Source: a virus
Virus record (IMG/VR): IMGVR_UViG_3300022752_000454
Span: 1 to 21,338 of that record
Reading direction: 5' to 3' (one strand)
DNA length: 21,338 bases
Every line of letters starts with the position of its first letter. Within the stretch, counting starts at the first letter, position 1. Positions 482 through 20,774 of this stretch are shown piece after piece. The position numbers were made by a program, and so were the translations under genes. A model generated the notes under the pieces. It had not been told where the DNA came from and ran no database searches. It saw only the letters and a list, made by a program, of their open reading frames with translations.

Positions 482-1102
482 ATGGCAAAGCGTCGTAAAA
501 CTGATCTTGAGCTAGAAAAGATGACTGATGCAAATATTGCTAAGGTTATCAAATTATTAGAACCACAAGATGGTAAACCTATAACTAAAAAAGATGCTTG
601 TCAAATATTAGGTATGTCTTATAATACAACTAGACTAGCTAGTATTATTGAAGAATTTAAACAAAAACAGCTACGTATAGCCGAACAAAAAGCTAAATTA
701 CGTGGTAAGCCTATTACTAACAGTGAACGAATTAATATTATTCAAGAATACTTAAGTGGTGCAACTGTTGAAAGTATTAGTAAAATGACTTATCGTGGTT
801 CACATCTTATTAAGCAAGTATTAGAGGATAATAGTGTACCCATACGTCAAACAGGGCACAACTATTTTACTCCGCAGCTAATACCCGACGGCGCTATACG
901 TGATAGATTTCAACTAGATGAAATAGTTTATAGTGCGCGCTATGATAGCATGGCTAAAATTAGAAGCGAAAAGTTAGACCCTAAACATGGGTATATATAC
1001 TCTTTATGGCTATTAAGTGAACGCTGGTTGCAGTGGTGTTGGCAACCAGCGTATGAACTCGCAAGTTTAGAACACTTAAGAAAAATTGGTATAGCAGTAT
1101 AG
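482..1102 (+). CDS. Putative HTH regulatory/DNA-binding protein, function unknown
   Basis: Encodes 206 aa from ATG 482, chosen because GGAG at 472-475 lies 6 nt upstream; an in-frame TTG at 470 overlaps that site and is unlikely. Two HTH-like segments are visible: about residues 34-58 (ITKKDACQILGMSYNTT followed by a helix) and about 71-115 (ITNSERINIIQEYLSGATVE, then a basic helix). A Lys/Gln/Arg-rich helix joins them. The C-terminal 80 residues are different, with clustered aromatics (SERWLQWCWQPAYE), perhaps a small beta domain. Arg codons are mostly CGN. It lies between a terminator and the GH130-like/FkbM cassette. I do not recognise the family; sequence-specific DNA binding is inferred only from the helix patterns. 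The 3' end carries a perfect 11-bp inverted repeat (1021-1052). Confidence 0.75.
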   Translation: MAKRRKTDLELEKMTDANIAKVIKLLEPQDGKPITKKDACQILGMSYNTTRLASIIEEFKQKQLRIAEQKAKLRGKPITNSERINIIQEYLSGATVESISKMTYRGSHLIKQVLEDNSVPIRQTGHNYFTPQLIPDGAIRDRFQLDEIVYSARYDSMAKIRSEKLDPKHGYIYSLWLLSERWLQWCWQPAYELASLEHLRKIGIAV

Positions 1103-1124: not shown

Positions 1125-2105
1125 ATGACATTTTGTAAAAAAATTTTAGAATCTGGTGGTACTATACACCCAATAACTCTACCATTTAATTTAACTAATG
1201 GTACAGGAATATTTAATCCTAGTGTATTCTATGATAAAGATACTGATAAATTATATATAAACATTAGACATTGTCAAGTTACACTCTATCACTCGGAAGA
1301 AGGCATATTTGAAAGTTATTGGGGACCACTACACTATGGTCATCCAGAAAACGACATTACACTAACAACTACTAATTATTTTGGAGAATTAGATCCTAGT
1401 ACGTTTGAATATAAATTTATATCTAAAGTAGATACTAGTTTATTAGATACTAAACCTATTTGGGATTTTGTAGGGTTAGAAGATTGCAGAATAGTTAAAT
1501 GGAATGATAAAATATATGTAAGTGGTGTACGCAGAGATACTACAACAAACGGTCAAGGCAGAATAGAATTATCTGAGCTAAATATTGAGAATAATATTGT
1601 AAAAGAAATATCTAGAAACAGATTGCAACCACCCAATGAAAGTAGCTATTGTGAAAAAAATTGGATGCCAGTAATTGATAAACCTTTAGAATATGTAAAG
1701 TGGTGTAATCCTACAGAGGTTGTAAAAGTAGATTTAAATGTAAATAAAGCTAATCAAATCTTTTTAGGAAAAAGTTTTTGGTATCCTAGAGATTTTCGTG
1801 GAGGTTCACAAGTAATTAATCTAAATGATAATTATAGATTTTGTTGTGTACATACGGTAAATCTTTTTAATTCTGAACAAGGAAGAAAAAATGCTATATA
1901 TAGGCATTGTTTTATTGTTTGGGATAAAGAATGGAACTTAATTAAGTATACACCAGAATTTACATTTTTAGATGCTAAAATAGAATTTTGTGCTGGTATG
2001 ACAAAATATAAAGATAAATTTATATTGACATTTGGTATGCAGGATAATAGCTCATATCTAATAACTATACCAGAAAAAATAATGGAAACAATATGTCTAG
2101 AATAA
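1125..2105 (+). CDS. GH130-like five-bladed beta-propeller protein (mannoside phosphorylase/hydrolase superfamily)
   Basis: Encodes 326 aa, the usual size of a glycoside hydrolase family 130 domain. Motifs run in the family order: FNPSVFYD near residue 30, GLEDCR at 117-122 (GH130 typically G-x-E-D-P-R, so Pro is replaced by Cys), EKNWMP at 177-182, RGGSQ at 225-229, and EFCAGM at 287-292 followed by LTFGMQD. GH130 enzymes phosphorolyse or hydrolyse beta-mannosides; related viral and glycosyltransferase-linked proteins have unproven activity. There is no signal peptide, so it acts in the cytoplasm or on the virion. Shine-Dalgarno AGGAA is at 1116-1120. It overlaps the next gene by 13 nt, so the two are probably translationally coupled. 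Ten of 12 Arg codons are AGA/AGG, unlike the core replication genes, consistent with separate acquisition. Fold assignment is likely; catalytic activity is uncertain. Confidence 0.7.
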   Translation: MTFCKKILESGGTIHPITLPFNLTNGTGIFNPSVFYDKDTDKLYINIRHCQVTLYHSEEGIFESYWGPLHYGHPENDITLTTTNYFGELDPSTFEYKFISKVDTSLLDTKPIWDFVGLEDCRIVKWNDKIYVSGVRRDTTTNGQGRIELSELNIENNIVKEISRNRLQPPNESSYCEKNWMPVIDKPLEYVKWCNPTEVVKVDLNVNKANQIFLGKSFWYPRDFRGGSQVINLNDNYRFCCVHTVNLFNSEQGRKNAIYRHCFIVWDKEWNLIKYTPEFTFLDAKIEFCAGMTKYKDKFILTFGMQDNSSYLITIPEKIMETICLE

Positions 2106-3337
2106 GAGATTTTTTATACAGTTATATTTATAATCCTAGTACGAACAATAAACTTTTATTAGCAGAAGAATATTTTTTACAACAACAGTATGCAGCTGCT
2201 CTTTCATTTTTTCTAAAAACTGCTGAATCTACAGACGATAAAAATCTACAATATTATTGTTTAATAAAATGTGCAAAGTGTTTGGAAATTCCAGGTAATA
2301 GAAAACATAGTGTTACTACACTTTATAAACATGCAGTAAATATTTTACCAGAAAGACCAGAGGCATACTACTGTATAAGTCAATCTTATGAATTATATAA
2401 AGATTGGTATGACGCATATACCTTTGCTAATTTAGGGCTACAAAAAGAATTTATATTAGATAATTATAGTAAAAAATTGAATTTTACTGGCAAATATTTA
2501 TTTATTTTTCAAAAAGCTATAGCTGCTTGGCATATAGGCAGAGGACAAGAATCTAGAAATTTGCTACAGGTACTAATACACGAATATTTTGATAAATTAG
2601 ATCAAGTTCATAGAGATTTAGTTATTAAAAATGCTACTAGTTTAGGTATTGGTCCTATGGGTGTATGTAATGTACCTTATATTAAAAACGAAAACAATCT
2701 TAGATTTAATTTTAAAAATTGGAATATTATAGATAAAAATTATTCTCAAGTTTTACAAGATATATTTGTACTTAGCATGTTAGATGGTAAATATAATGGA
2801 ACTTATTTAGAAATAGGTAGTGGAGATCCCTATCATTTAAATAATACATATCTACTAGAAAGTGTATTTGATTGGACAGGTAAGGGCATAGAAATTCAAA
2901 AAGAATTGTGTGATAAACACAGTTCTAGAAAAAATGAAGTTTTATGTAAAAATGCACTAGAAATAGATTATGAAGAACTATTATCTAGTATTACTTCAAC
3001 TAATAATATAGATTATTTACAATTAGATTGTGAGCCTCCTGAAACAACTTATAAAATAATGACTAAAATACCTTTTGATAAATATAAGTTTGCTGTAATA
3101 ACTTATGAGCACGATCATTATATAGATGCTACTAGACAATATAGAAAAAAATCTAGAGAATTTTTAACTAGTAAGGGCTATTTATTAGTTGTTAATGATA
3201 TTTCTCCAGAAGGTAAATGTAGTTTTGAAGATTGGTGGATTCATCCTGATTTGATAAATCAAGAAATATTAGAAATTATGATTGACAATGACTTATCAAA
3301 AATAAAAAATATAAAACACTATATGTATGGACAGTAA
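2093..3337 (+). CDS. TPR-repeat protein with C-terminal FkbM-type SAM methyltransferase domain
   Basis: Encodes 414 aa in two parts. Residues about 15-190 are helical with TPR-like repeats (AEEYFLQQQYAAALSFFLKT; PERPEAYYCISQSYELYKDW), a scaffold often fused to glycan-modifying enzymes. Residues about 215-400 match FkbM-family methyltransferases: YSQVLQD at 217-223, the SAM-binding strand and loop YLEIGSGDP at 238-246, NNTYLLE, then IDYLQLDCEPPE. FkbM proteins O-methylate sugars or polyketides using S-adenosylmethionine. With the preceding GH130-like gene, the likely substrate is a glycan (host surface polysaccharide or a glycosylated phage component); that is inference. All 12 Arg codons are AGA, the most extreme bias in the window. 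The start overlaps the previous gene by 13 nt and the end overlaps the PC4-like gene by 11 nt. Confidence 0.8.
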   Translation: MSRIRDFLYSYIYNPSTNNKLLLAEEYFLQQQYAAALSFFLKTAESTDDKNLQYYCLIKCAKCLEIPGNRKHSVTTLYKHAVNILPERPEAYYCISQSYELYKDWYDAYTFANLGLQKEFILDNYSKKLNFTGKYLFIFQKAIAAWHIGRGQESRNLLQVLIHEYFDKLDQVHRDLVIKNATSLGIGPMGVCNVPYIKNENNLRFNFKNWNIIDKNYSQVLQDIFVLSMLDGKYNGTYLEIGSGDPYHLNNTYLLESVFDWTGKGIEIQKELCDKHSSRKNEVLCKNALEIDYEELLSSITSTNNIDYLQLDCEPPETTYKIMTKIPFDKYKFAVITYEHDHYIDATRQYRKKSREFLTSKGYLLVVNDISPEGKCSFEDWWIHPDLINQEILEIMIDNDLSKIKNIKHYMYGQ

Positions 3338-3608
3338 TATATTATATGAAAGACTAATAGAAGAAAATTTAGAAAAAGGCTTTCAGGTTAAACTAGTAGT
3401 TAATGATTTTAGAGACATTACTTATATACAATTACGAAAATATTTTTTAAGCTATGAAGGTGAATGGCTTCCTAGTCGCGAAGGAGTTAGTATACCTGCT
3501 AGTATAGAAAATATACATCAACTACTATACGGATTATTAGACATCTGCGCTAGTGCAGAGGGCGAACAAGTAATTAAATTTTTTCACGATAAGATAATAA
3601 AAAAATAA
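3327..3608 (+). CDS. PC4-like (transcription coactivator p15) single-stranded DNA-binding protein
   Basis: Encodes 93 aa with the PC4 signature across residues 20-72: FRDITYIQLRKYF (28-40), then the Gly/Glu turn SYEGEWLPSREGVSIP (42-57), then the amphipathic helix HQLLYGLLDI. PC4-fold proteins are homodimers that bind and unwind single-stranded DNA. Phage T5 encodes a homologue implicated in recombination-dependent replication, and this gene sits beside a T5-type split ligase, so the same role is likely. The ATG lies inside the end of the methyltransferase gene (11-nt overlap) with no strong Shine-Dalgarno, so it may be translated by coupling; a weak candidate promoter (TTGACA at 3282) lies just upstream. 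Confidence in the fold is high because the conserved basic/aromatic strand pattern is complete. Confidence 0.82.
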   Translation: MDSNILYERLIEENLEKGFQVKLVVNDFRDITYIQLRKYFLSYEGEWLPSREGVSIPASIENIHQLLYGLLDICASAEGEQVIKFFHDKIIKK

Positions 3609-3645: not shown

Positions 3646-4599
3646 ATGAATAAATTACACAAATACCTAGACGAAGCAAGTAAAGCCTATTATCAAGGCA
3701 ATCCAATTATTAATGACTTAGTATTTGATATATTAGCAGATAGTTGTGGCTATAACAAAGTAGGTGCACAAATACATGGCCGCAAGGCCAAACACGCCTA
3801 TCAAATGTATAGTTTGCAGAAGTGGTATTCTGATGAAGGCCGTGAAAATCCACTTAAAGATGAACAAGTTACTACTAGTATTAAATTAGATGGGGCTGCC
3901 ATTAGTTTACTATATCTACACGGTAATTTAGCTATGGCTATTACTCGTGGTGATGGAGTTGAGGGTCAACTAATCACAGACAAAATGTATGAGTTCGGTA
4001 ACTTAGTTCCACTAAAAATAAATAGCAATCATAAACTACAAATTACTGGCGAAATCGCCGCACCAAAACATATTGAAAATGCCCGTAACTATGCTGCAGG
4101 CTCACTAAACTTAAAAGATTTAGCAGAATTTCGGACTCGTGCCATACAGTTTTTTGCTTATCAAATAAGTCCACTGGTAAATAAAAGTTGGGTTGATGAT
4201 ATGCTTTGGCTAAAAAGTAATGGGTTTAATACTGTTTTAGAACCAGACTTAGACAAAATCTATCCTACAGATGGACTAGTAGTACGTGTAGTAGATAATA
4301 ATAGATTTGAACAATTGGGTTATACTAGTAAACATCCTCGTGGCGCTTATGCAGTTAAAGAGCGCGCTAAACATGTAGAAACCAAACTTATTGGAGTAGA
4401 GTGGAATGTTGGTAAAACTGGCAAGGTAACTCCAACAGCTTTACTAGAACCAGTATATATTGGCGATGCACTGGTTAGCCGAGCCACACTCAACAATCCT
4501 GGATTTATCGAAGCCCTAGATCTCAAGATTGGCGATACTGTAGCTGTAGCACGTAGTGGCGAAATCATACCATGCATACTGCATAAGGTTGATGCATAA
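3646..4599 (+). CDS. ligA: NAD+-dependent DNA ligase, subunit A (adenylation and OB domains)
   Basis: Encodes 317 aa, the N-terminal half of a bacterial LigA-type ligase. A shortened Ia region is recognisable (AYYQGNPIINDLVFDIL, residues 14-30), followed by HAYQMYSLQKWY. The adenylated lysine is K80 in the motif IKLDGAAISLLY; ITRGDGVEGQ follows. The OB fold carries GKTGKVTPTALLEPVYIGD and ATLNN, then IGDTVAVARSGEIIP. The protein stops exactly where the zinc finger would begin in a single-chain LigA (about 670 aa); the remaining domains are encoded at 4679-5443. This split is the T5 phage arrangement. The complex seals nicks, including Okazaki fragments, using NAD+. It is driven by its own promoter at 3610-3638 with a leaderless start. 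No frameshift joins the halves: 79 nt and a second promoter lie between them. Confidence 0.93.
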   Translation: MNKLHKYLDEASKAYYQGNPIINDLVFDILADSCGYNKVGAQIHGRKAKHAYQMYSLQKWYSDEGRENPLKDEQVTTSIKLDGAAISLLYLHGNLAMAITRGDGVEGQLITDKMYEFGNLVPLKINSNHKLQITGEIAAPKHIENARNYAAGSLNLKDLAEFRTRAIQFFAYQISPLVNKSWVDDMLWLKSNGFNTVLEPDLDKIYPTDGLVVRVVDNNRFEQLGYTSKHPRGAYAVKERAKHVETKLIGVEWNVGKTGKVTPTALLEPVYIGDALVSRATLNNPGFIEALDLKIGDTVAVARSGEIIPCILHKVDA

Positions 4600-4631
4600 T
4601 TTTACAGCTTAGGGGTAGATAAAATTTTAGC

Positions 4632-4660
4632 TTGTAACAGAAAACTAATTACTGTATAAT
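4632..4660 (+). promoter_or_regulatory. Sigma70-like promoter for ligase subunit B
   Basis: TTGTAA (4632-4637), 17-bp spacer, perfect TATAAT (4655-4660) in the 79-nt gap between the two ligase genes. The expected start is near 4667, giving a leader of only about 10-12 nt with no Shine-Dalgarno before ATG 4679. Confidence 0.7.
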
Positions 4661-4678
4661 AATATCTTAAGTTGATAA

Positions 4679-5443
4679 ATGAATATGAAGATACAAATAC
4701 CAACACATTGTCCTTGTTGCAATTATCCTCTGGAATTAATAAATTCTCAATTGTTTTGCCGCAACCAGGCTTGTGATGCTCAGTTACTAAAAAGAGTTGA
4801 ACATTTTTGTAAAACTATGGGCATTAAGGGTATGGGCACTAAAACTATTGAAAAGCTAGAATTAGCTGATATTACAGAACTGTACTATCTAGATGTAGAT
4901 CAGTTAGCTAAACAATTAGGTAGTCAAAAAATTGCTGAAAAATTAATTAGTGAATTAGATCGTAGTCGTAGTGCTAACTTACAACAAGTATTAGCTAGTA
5001 TGAGTATACCACTAGTAGGAAATACAGCAAGTATAAAAATTTGTAGTGTAGTTAATCATATTAGTGAAATCAATATAGAAACCTGTAAAAAAGCTGGATT
5101 AGGTGATAAAGTAACACAAAATCTATTAAATTGGTTAGAGACAGAATTTCCAGAAATGAAAGAATTTTTACCTTTTTCATTTCAAAGTGAAATACCTATA
5201 GTAAACACTAATAATAAAAATGTGTGTATTACAGGTAAATTATCGTCCTTTAAAACAAAAGCCGAAGCATATAAAATATTAGTTAATAATGGATTTAATA
5301 TAACAGAATCTGTAACAAAAACTACGGACTATTTAGTTGATGAGGAAGGTAATAGTAGTACAAAACGTAAAAAGGCCGACGAACTCGGCATTAAAATTAT
5401 TACAAACTTAAATAACTTTTTAAGAGAACTAAAAAATGACTGA
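4679..5443 (+). CDS. ligB: NAD+-dependent DNA ligase, subunit B (zinc finger, HhH and BRCT domains)
   Basis: Encodes 254 aa, the C-terminal half of a LigA-type ligase. The Cys4 zinc finger is C11-x2-C14 and C27-x4-C32 (FCRNQAC), followed by the helix-hairpin-helix region (VEHFCKTMGIKGMGTKTIEK; later LASMSIPLVGNTASIK). Residues about 180-252 form a BRCT domain starting NKNVCITGKLSSF and containing TTDYLVDEEGNSSTKRKKA. It has no adenylation domain and must pair with subunit A. The region supplies nick recognition and DNA encirclement. It has its own promoter; an in-frame ATG at 4685 is an alternative start. The 3' end overlaps the D5-like gene by 8 nt, so ligase B and the D5-like protein are probably co-transcribed. 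Separate promoters for the two halves allow different subunit doses, an oddity for an obligate heterodimer. Confidence 0.9.
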   Translation: MNMKIQIPTHCPCCNYPLELINSQLFCRNQACDAQLLKRVEHFCKTMGIKGMGTKTIEKLELADITELYYLDVDQLAKQLGSQKIAEKLISELDRSRSANLQQVLASMSIPLVGNTASIKICSVVNHISEINIETCKKAGLGDKVTQNLLNWLETEFPEMKEFLPFSFQSEIPIVNTNNKNVCITGKLSSFKTKAEAYKILVNNGFNITESVTKTTDYLVDEEGNSSTKRKKADELGIKIITNLNNFLRELKND

Positions 5444-18809: not shown

Positions 18810-20774
18810 ATGCAAGTAAGCACACGCGCACAAGTAATTACTAGACGAACTTATAATAGGCCAACTAGTGATGATGGTAAACAGTTTGAAAACTGGCAGC
18901 AAACTGTTAGGCGAGTTAAGGATCATCAACATTGGCTATGGGAGCGAGCAGTTGGTCGTCAGCTCTACTTTCATGAGGTAGAAGAATTAGATGAACTAGA
19001 AAAATTAATGCTGGAACGTAAAGTATTAATGGCTGGGCGTACACTTTGGTTAGGTGGTACAACAGTAGCTAAAACTAGAGAAGCTAGTCAATTTAATTGT
19101 AGTTTTACTCATGTAGAAACAGTATATGATGTAGTTGATGTATTATGGTTATTACTTCAAGGATGCGGAGTAGGATTTAAACCTATTGTAGGTACACTAA
19201 ATGGATTCTCAAAACCAATTAAAAATATTCAAGTTGTTAAAAGTCAACGAACAGCTAAGGGTGGACTTGAATACAATGTTGAAACCTGGGATGCAGCAAC
19301 AAAAACTTGGACTATACAAATTGGAGACAGTGCTGAAGCGTGGGCCAAATCTATTGGAAAGCTTCTTGCGGGCAAGTATCCTGCTAATACTCTTATACTT
19401 GATTTTAGTCAATTAAGACCTGCCGGTGAAAGATTAAAAGGATATGGGTGGATTTCAAGCGGTGATAGTGCTATCTCAAAAGCTTATGTTGCAATTGCCA
19501 ACATTCTTAATGGTCGGGCTGATAGCCTTCTTACTAGGATGGATATTCTTGATATTATTAATCATCTTGGAACGATCTTATCCAGTCGTAGAAGTGCTGA
19601 AATTGCTCTTTTTGACTATGGTCAACCGGAATGGCAAGAATTTGCAGTAGCTAAAAAAGATTTTTGGCTGTATAATCGAGAACATCGTCAACAATCAAAT
19701 AACAGCCTAGTATTCAAAGAAAAGCCAACACGCCAAGAGTTAAAAGAAATTTTTAATCTTATGCTAGAGGCTGGTGGTAGTGAACCAGGATTTATTAATG
19801 AACAAGAAGCTCTTAGACGTGCTCCGTGGTTTAAAGGAGCAAATCCTTGTGTTGAAATCTTGTTGGGAAACAAAAGCTTCTGTAACCTTACAGAAACGGA
19901 TATCTCCAAGTTTAAAGGTAATACCGCAGGATTACACGATGCGATCAGATTGGCTGCCAGGGCAAATTATCGTCAAACCTGTGTTAATCTTAAAGACGGG
20001 ATCTTACAAGAAGCTTGGCACCTTAACAACTATTTCTTACGTCTCTGTGGAGTAGGATTAACAGGTATTGCTATGCGCCCAGATATGACTAGTTATGACT
20101 ATGAATATTTAAAGCGCACTGCTACATCAAGTGCCATTTCAATGGCTGATGAACTAGGTTTACCTAGTCCTAAGAATGTTACTTGTATTAAACCTAGTGG
20201 AACACTGTCAAAAATTATGGATTGTACTGAAGGCGTACATAAGCCCCTAGGAAAGTATATTTTTAACAATGTACAATTTAGTACTTATGATCCTATGATT
20301 CCACTACTACGAGATAGTGGCTATAAAGTAATTAATCACCCTACAGATCCAACCGGTGTACTAGTAACATTTCCAGTAGAGTGGAAAGATGTACCTTTTC
20401 ATAAGGAAAACGGTAAAGAAGTTAATCTTGAAAGTGCTGTTTATCAACTAGAACGCTATAAATTACTACAAACTAGTTGGGCACAACAAAATACTAGTGT
20501 AACTATTAGTTATGATCCTAGTGAGGTTACAGAGATTATTGACTGGTTGTTAAATAACTGGGATTGTTATGTAGGGGTTAGTTTTATTTATAGAACAGAT
20601 CCTACTAAAACTGCTCAAGATTTAGGTTATCTTTACCTTCCACAAGAAGTTGTAGATGAAAAAACTTATAAAGACTATGTTTACAATTTAAAATCAATTG
20701 ATATTGAAAGTGCTAACAGTTTTGACGAATTATTAGATGATGAATGCATATCAGGAGTTTGCCCCGTAAAATGA
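18810..20774 (+). CDS. nrdJ: Class II (adenosylcobalamin-dependent) ribonucleotide reductase, monomeric type
   Basis: Encodes 654 aa, somewhat shorter than the Lactobacillus leichmannii enzyme (739 aa). It reduces ribonucleoside triphosphates using a thiyl radical made from coenzyme B12. Active-site residues align by spacing: first redox Cys C97 (FNCSFTHV), radical Cys C347 and E349 (NPCVEILLG), second redox Cys C358 (FCNLTE), and the C-terminal shuttle pair C646/C651 (CISGVC). The 11- and 5-residue spacings equal those of the L. leichmannii enzyme. Other family motifs are LLQGCGVGF, VGLTGIAMRP and CIKPSGTLSKIMDCTEGVH. Shine-Dalgarno AGGAG precedes the ATG. A host or environmental supply of B12 is required. 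No NrdA/B genes lie in the window. Confidence 0.93.
   Translation: MQVSTRAQVITRRTYNRPTSDDGKQFENWQQTVRRVKDHQHWLWERAVGRQLYFHEVEELDELEKLMLERKVLMAGRTLWLGGTTVAKTREASQFNCSFTHVETVYDVVDVLWLLLQGCGVGFKPIVGTLNGFSKPIKNIQVVKSQRTAKGGLEYNVETWDAATKTWTIQIGDSAEAWAKSIGKLLAGKYPANTLILDFSQLRPAGERLKGYGWISSGDSAISKAYVAIANILNGRADSLLTRMDILDIINHLGTILSSRRSAEIALFDYGQPEWQEFAVAKKDFWLYNREHRQQSNNSLVFKEKPTRQELKEIFNLMLEAGGSEPGFINEQEALRRAPWFKGANPCVEILLGNKSFCNLTETDISKFKGNTAGLHDAIRLAARANYRQTCVNLKDGILQEAWHLNNYFLRLCGVGLTGIAMRPDMTSYDYEYLKRTATSSAISMADELGLPSPKNVTCIKPSGTLSKIMDCTEGVHKPLGKYIFNNVQFSTYDPMIPLLRDSGYKVINHPTDPTGVLVTFPVEWKDVPFHKENGKEVNLESAVYQLERYKLLQTSWAQQNTSVTISYDPSEVTEIIDWLLNNWDCYVGVSFIYRTDPTKTAQDLGYLYLPQEVVDEKTYKDYVYNLKSIDIESANSFDELLDDECISGVCPVK

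Follow-up and report, generated by a model that had tools for sequence, protein, structure and literature searches.

Background

What are two genes that look like glycan enzymes doing in the middle of the replication genes of a virus? The question is raised by a virus fragment of 21,338 bases (hereafter the window, meaning the whole stretch of DNA analysed), which bears a T5-like replication cluster and whose DNA polymerase has its nearest counterparts among phage records in Vibrio phages such as Thalassa (49% identity). Two overlapping plus-strand genes of 326 and 414 aa (the second at 2093-3337; Table 1), here called the cassette, sit amid these replication genes and not among tail genes, overlapping each other by 13 bases, while the second overlaps the PC4-like gene by 11 bases. 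An initial annotation, made from the letters alone, had read the pair as an acquired GH130-like and TPR-FkbM module with foreign Arg codon use; its coordinates and Arg codon counts were correct on recount. Elsewhere in the window, an NAD-dependent DNA ligase is carried in two genes at 3646-5443 (an adenylation/OB part and a part with BRCT), and a ribonucleotide reductase at 18810-20774 has a B12-dependent (class II) insertion domain, with a match that is sub-threshold for that domain.

Table 1. Features of the cassette and its borders in the window
Feature	Position	Strand	Evidence
Left flanking gene, 206 aa; core replication-cluster gene, left slot border	482..1102	+	phrog_3611 ('helicase'), PHROG E 2.6e-52
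GH130/GT108-like five-bladed propeller, 326 aa; proposed beta-mannosyl transferase/phosphorylase	1125..2105	+	AlphaFold2, PDB folds, hhalign, sub-threshold PF04041
GLEDCR motif, aa 117-122; D120 corresponds to GH130 catalytic Asp	1473..1490	+	Invariant residues in 60 relatives; aligns with GH130 'EDPR'
TPR domain, aa 1-190 of second protein; conserved propeller partner	2093..2662	+	AlphaFold2, TPR profile, invariant residues
FkbM-like SAM-dependent methyltransferase domain, aa 206-414; exchangeable cargo	2708..3337	+	Rossmann-type fold; 37% identity to DSL-LC02 protein
Right flanking gene, PC4-like ssDNA-binding protein, 93 aa; right slot border	3327..3608	+	Pfam PF02229 E 7e-7

Results and discussion

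The cassette occupies a variable slot between two core genes

T5-like contigs were located through their polymerase, and 40 of them, some near-identical, covered the site between the two flanking genes. The cassette was present in 10/40 and absent from 30/40, so the same pair is not found here in all relatives, and the flanking 206-aa gene occurred in relatives with and without it. Where the slot was empty (L110, L121, L122, and L140), the 206-aa and PC4 genes abutted or overlapped by a few bases, L110 having a polymerase 92% identical to that of the window. At the same place, other cassette-free relatives had short unrelated genes or a small ORF (~55 aa) predicted to encode a membrane protein. 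These empty sites in close relatives are direct proof that the cassette interrupts the replication cluster, as initially annotated: it is an accessory insert between two core genes. Because many close relatives are empty at the slot, its position also supports the idea of an acquired module, to which codon use (below) adds little.

The slot has also seen traffic of its own. Among relatives whose polymerases are 91-92% identical, the propellers are just 57-72% identical, and therefore alleles have been exchanged at this site. In one relative, a GT2-methyltransferase fusion gene (L142:2279-3538) stands in place of the cassette between the 206-aa and PC4 genes, so that the slot seems to gather glycan enzymes.

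Arginine codon use is distinctive but weak as evidence of origin

AGA/AGG account for 22/24 Arg codons in the cassette (10/12 AGR in the first gene and 12/12 AGA in the second), against CGT/CGC in 11/11 for the D5-like gene and CGN in 10/14 for the 206-aa gene. The remaining window genes pooled have 100 AGR to 147 CGN codons (100/247; Fisher p 1e-6 versus the cassette, in a comparison picked post hoc), and the contrast is repeated in eight cassette-bearing relatives, with AGR:CGN of 159:62 in the cassette and 592:1002 in core genes. The contrast is therefore real and recurrent, yet its reading as foreign Arg codon use held up only in part. Since the AT-rich base composition alone already gives an expected 62-67% AGR, the cassette lies only moderately beyond neutrality (p 0.001-0.005), and the core genes are the CGN-enriched side of the contrast. 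Across 67 diverse loci, the AGR share of the propeller gene was about that of its neighbours (0.62 vs 0.59, p 0.13). We therefore rejected codon use as proof of foreign origin; it is compatible with exchange between phages, and weak as proof because AT bias accounts for part of it.

The first protein is predicted to be a mannoside-type propeller enzyme

The Pfam GH130 profile (PF04041) scored 16.4 bits on the first protein, under its cut-off of 26 (16.6 bits in relative L062), and neither Pfam nor NCBIfam accepted it as GH130 at their cut-offs. A PDB sequence search gave chance matches only, so fold comparison was needed. With 60 viral relatives as the alignment, AlphaFold2 predicted a five-bladed beta-propeller (pLDDT 90.5), whose best PDB folds by Foldseek were Leishmania MPT-2 and MPT-4, followed by GH130 phosphorylases and mannosidases; the top four matches were all Leishmania GT108-group proteins, and many GH130 structures matched with a probability of 1.00 and TM of 0.5-0.6. 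An hhalign comparison of the propeller profile with GH130 proteins fetched from bacterial genomes gave a probability of 94. Predicted fold and profile alignment thus back the initial GH130-like assignment of this gene, and we predict with high confidence that it encodes a GH130/GT108-type five-bladed mannoside enzyme, for which the low profile diversity (family Neff 2.6) and the TM range would be compatible with various donors and linkages.

Residue conservation can be followed into the presumed active site. G117, E119, D120, and R122 of the GLEDCR motif are invariant across 60 propeller relatives, N31, R48, and D307 are as well, and N31, R48, E119-D120, and D307 align to GH130 active-site positions. 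In the Leishmania MPT/MTP proteins (GT108; PDB 6q4x, 6q50), which include mannosyltransferases and mannose phosphorylase (MPT-2 and MPT-4 being GDP-Man-dependent mannosyltransferase and mannose phosphorylase), the catalytic Asp of the propeller, inactive as D94N in the PDB, is of the same type as the invariant D120; these proteins are eukaryotic and share just 14-16% identity with the phage propeller.

In GH130, Glu replacing basic phosphate-binding residues marks hydrolases (PMC4599007). The invariant R225 of the phage propeller sits at the Glu of 'ESGPP' in aligned GH130 proteins, that is, at one hydrolase Glu, with the other phosphate-binding/Glu-pair positions being poorly aligned, and under this rule a transferase or phosphorylase would be a better guess than a hydrolase. 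The propeller might instead have a degradative role, working as a mannosidase or phosphorylase to supply host metabolism with sugar or to open up host polysaccharide, as GH130 enzymes are mainly catabolic (PMC4599007), but the Arg at the hydrolase Glu and the steady coupling to a TPR scaffold and biosynthetic tailoring enzymes described below make this role unlikely. Although it has in common with GH130 enzymes the five-bladed fold and the N, R, E/D-D, and D active-site positions, the phage protein differs in falling under the Pfam cut-off, in R225, and in a biosynthetic rather than catabolic context.

The second protein joins a TPR domain to a methyltransferase fold

In the AlphaFold2 model of the second protein (pLDDT 94.2), an N-terminal TPR domain precedes a methyltransferase of Rossmann type. 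By itself, the window TPR protein was under Pfam cut-offs; the profile of its family matched consensus TPRs in the PDB (E 2.7e-22), in agreement with the helical model, and residues Y27, Y54, R70, R88, P89, and E90 of the domain were invariant across 66 relatives. The TPRs of OGT/SPY were the top PDB fold matches, and methyltransferases were among the others. With the protein glycosyltransferases OGT and SPINDLY, the phage system shares the pairing of a TPR domain with a catalytic unit of glycan type, although the catalytic fold is different, the phage catalytic part resides in a separate protein, and the TPR similarity is generic.

The methyltransferase domain of the window had no match to FkbM (PF05050 / TIGR01444) in Pfam or NCBIfam. 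It shares 37% identity with a DSL-LC02 phage protein that is annotated FkbM and only borders on the Pfam cut-off; a homologue in L005 scored 22.6 bits against the FkbM cut-off of 22.7. The folds hence agree with the initial TPR-FkbM call, short of the FkbM family cut-off, and structure prediction returned glycan-enzyme types for both proteins (propeller; TPR plus methyltransferase fold) rather than unrelated folds.

Propeller and TPR form a constant core with exchangeable cargo

We examined the best 80 of at least 599 loci together with loci that a second scan, using the TPR-FkbM protein as query, had added, all contigs being fragments, and the proportions therefore refer to nearer relatives. 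In this set, the gene following the propeller carried a TPR domain in 67/77 dereplicated loci, mostly in overlapping frames, and a TPR plus the methyltransferase of the window type in 46/77; in L041, propeller and TPR form a single ORF. Propeller distances followed TPR distances (Mantel r 0.72), while methyltransferase distances gave r of 0.26 versus propeller and 0.34 versus TPR, though the TPR shares its polypeptide. The shared propeller-TPR history may partly be phage phylogeny. The FkbM domain was absent in L008, L009, L114, L116, L124, and L129, and alternative cargo included classical FkbM, Methyltransf_24, GT2, GT17, GT25, DUF6445, and radical SAM/SPASM domains, as well as GDP-mannose dehydratase-type epimerase and a mannose-6-phosphate isomerase domain. 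The conserved unit is thus not propeller plus FkbM: the fixed unit is propeller plus TPR, and the methyltransferase is swappable cargo.

Two arrangements illustrate the range of cargo. In L103:9016-11199, the TPR-methyltransferase protein also includes the C-terminal domain of a mannose-6-phosphate isomerase as a fusion, which may connect it with the supply of mannose. In two close relatives, DUF6445 genes lie behind the TPR-FkbM gene (L006:10219-11511 and L007:10220-10819), L006 with an extra FkbM.

The family is widespread in phages and essentially confined to them

The cassette is no isolated case: propeller relatives occur on at least 599 IMG/VR viral contigs. Named phages have few: propellers were found in 3/50,697 phage records, two of which are Synechococcus phages, S-SCSM2R and DSL-LC02, with homologous propeller and TPR genes adjoining (55%/43% and 45%/34% identity). 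These have larger genomes of another kind (244 kb and 168 kb, respectively) with DUF6445 and FkbM with radical SAM as cargo, and their pair is annotated just as 'MGP protein' / 'beta-mannosyltransferase'. We found no description of the propeller-TPR pair in the openly licensed literature. To our knowledge, the Leishmania enzymes have no TPR partner gene or cargo.

Among 84,980 bacterial and archaeal genomes, the propeller occurred on nine contigs, almost all of which carry the title of a metagenome bin, with a TPR gene next to it in 9/9. One of these, 3 kb long, comes from a near relative of the window phage, and the longer contigs tested had tail sheath stabiliser, head-tail adaptor, or portal genes; because cellular hits were limited to these, the family is essentially confined to phages. 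We rejected a recent one-off import from a bacterium, because the family is essentially phage-only and related alleles stand at the same place in several relatives. Separately, L101 and L105, L106, and L107 are phage contigs inside Verrucomicrobia and Rhodobacteraceae bins, with three cassette copies in one bin.

A proposed role and its possible acceptors

We propose that the cassette serves phages, and phages alone, as a mobile module for glycan modification. The propeller would transfer a beta-linked mannose or manno-configured sugar from GDP-mannose or mannose-1-phosphate, or would act as a phosphorylase; the TPR domain would bind the propeller and/or the acceptor; and the TPR protein would bear interchangeable tailoring enzymes, in this phage a methyltransferase of FkbM-like type, with O-methylation of the transferred sugar as its expected task. 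Catalytic activity, donor sugar, propeller-TPR contact, sugar methylation and, above all, the acceptor are what we infer from genes and models. We put the explanation as a whole, in which a beta-mannosyl transferase of viral type works through a TPR adaptor and varying tailoring enzymes on a phage structural protein, at a probability of about 50%.

What, then, might be modified? Most cassette copies lie elsewhere than the replication cluster, many near tail genes. Among the best 80 of at least 599 loci and those of the second scan, collagen-like genes were within two genes of the cassette in 18/76 versus 9.1 expected (permutation p 2e-4), and genes upstream of the cassette often match tail-fibre PHROGs, which together suggest tail fibres as the acceptor. 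Collagen and cassette co-occurred in 27/32 of a mixed set without matched control, and in T5-like relatives, which are fragments, cassette carriers showed no clear excess of collagen genes over non-carriers (~5/10 vs 4/17). The acceptor is probably either collagen-like tail fibres or a host surface glycan; of the two, a structural protein of the phage, in many cases a tail fibre of collagen-like type, is the likelier. Virion glycosylation of mycobacteriophages, as cited in PMC12619734, places glycans on capsid and tail proteins, whereas in the present system it is a prediction from genes and models. The fullest version of our proposal, a phage-exclusive modular machine in which a mannosyltransferase-TPR base takes pluggable GT, methyltransferase, oxygenase-like, or radical-SAM cargo and adds sugars to tail fibres, often collagen-like, of the phage itself, is more tentative, and we would hold it at less than even odds.

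The same enzymology could be turned on host lipopolysaccharide or another surface glycan, altering the infected cell to exclude other phages. Work on pelagimyophages favours such a target where glycosyltransferases are encoded in the host-recognition regions of phages (PMC7029224). In L105 and its relatives, the cassette is followed by genes of heptose kinase/adenylyltransferase type, and genes of GDP-mannose dehydratase type lie near the cassette or elsewhere in the same phage. However, we recognised neither a membrane transferase nor a flippase as a partner within the cassette, and a constant TPR partner beside collagen and tail-fibre genes better fits a protein acceptor, so that we regard a host-surface target as somewhat unlikely, if the strongest competitor.

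The seat of the cassette in the replication cluster, adjoining the 206-aa gene, PC4, and ligase, raises a further reading, namely sugar-type hypermodification of phage DNA, and phage glycosyltransferases often act on DNA according to literature cited in PMC12619734. We consider this very unlikely: the window has no recognisable enzyme for base hydroxymethylation, most copies of the cassette lie elsewhere, many near tail genes, and the slot here is an exchange site that is empty in many relatives. Modification of a phage structural protein remains our preferred reading.

Conclusions

If tail fibres are glycosylated by this system, there would be consequences for host range, for recognition, and for the stability of the particle, and the family would offer beta-mannosyl transferases whose tailoring domains can be exchanged. 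The pattern of a constant core with swapped cargo yields clear predictions for one cultured phage, S-SCSM2R on Synechococcus WH7803. With hundreds of uncultured aquatic phages carrying it and almost none isolated, the cassette may point to a large unrecognised branch of viral glycobiology.
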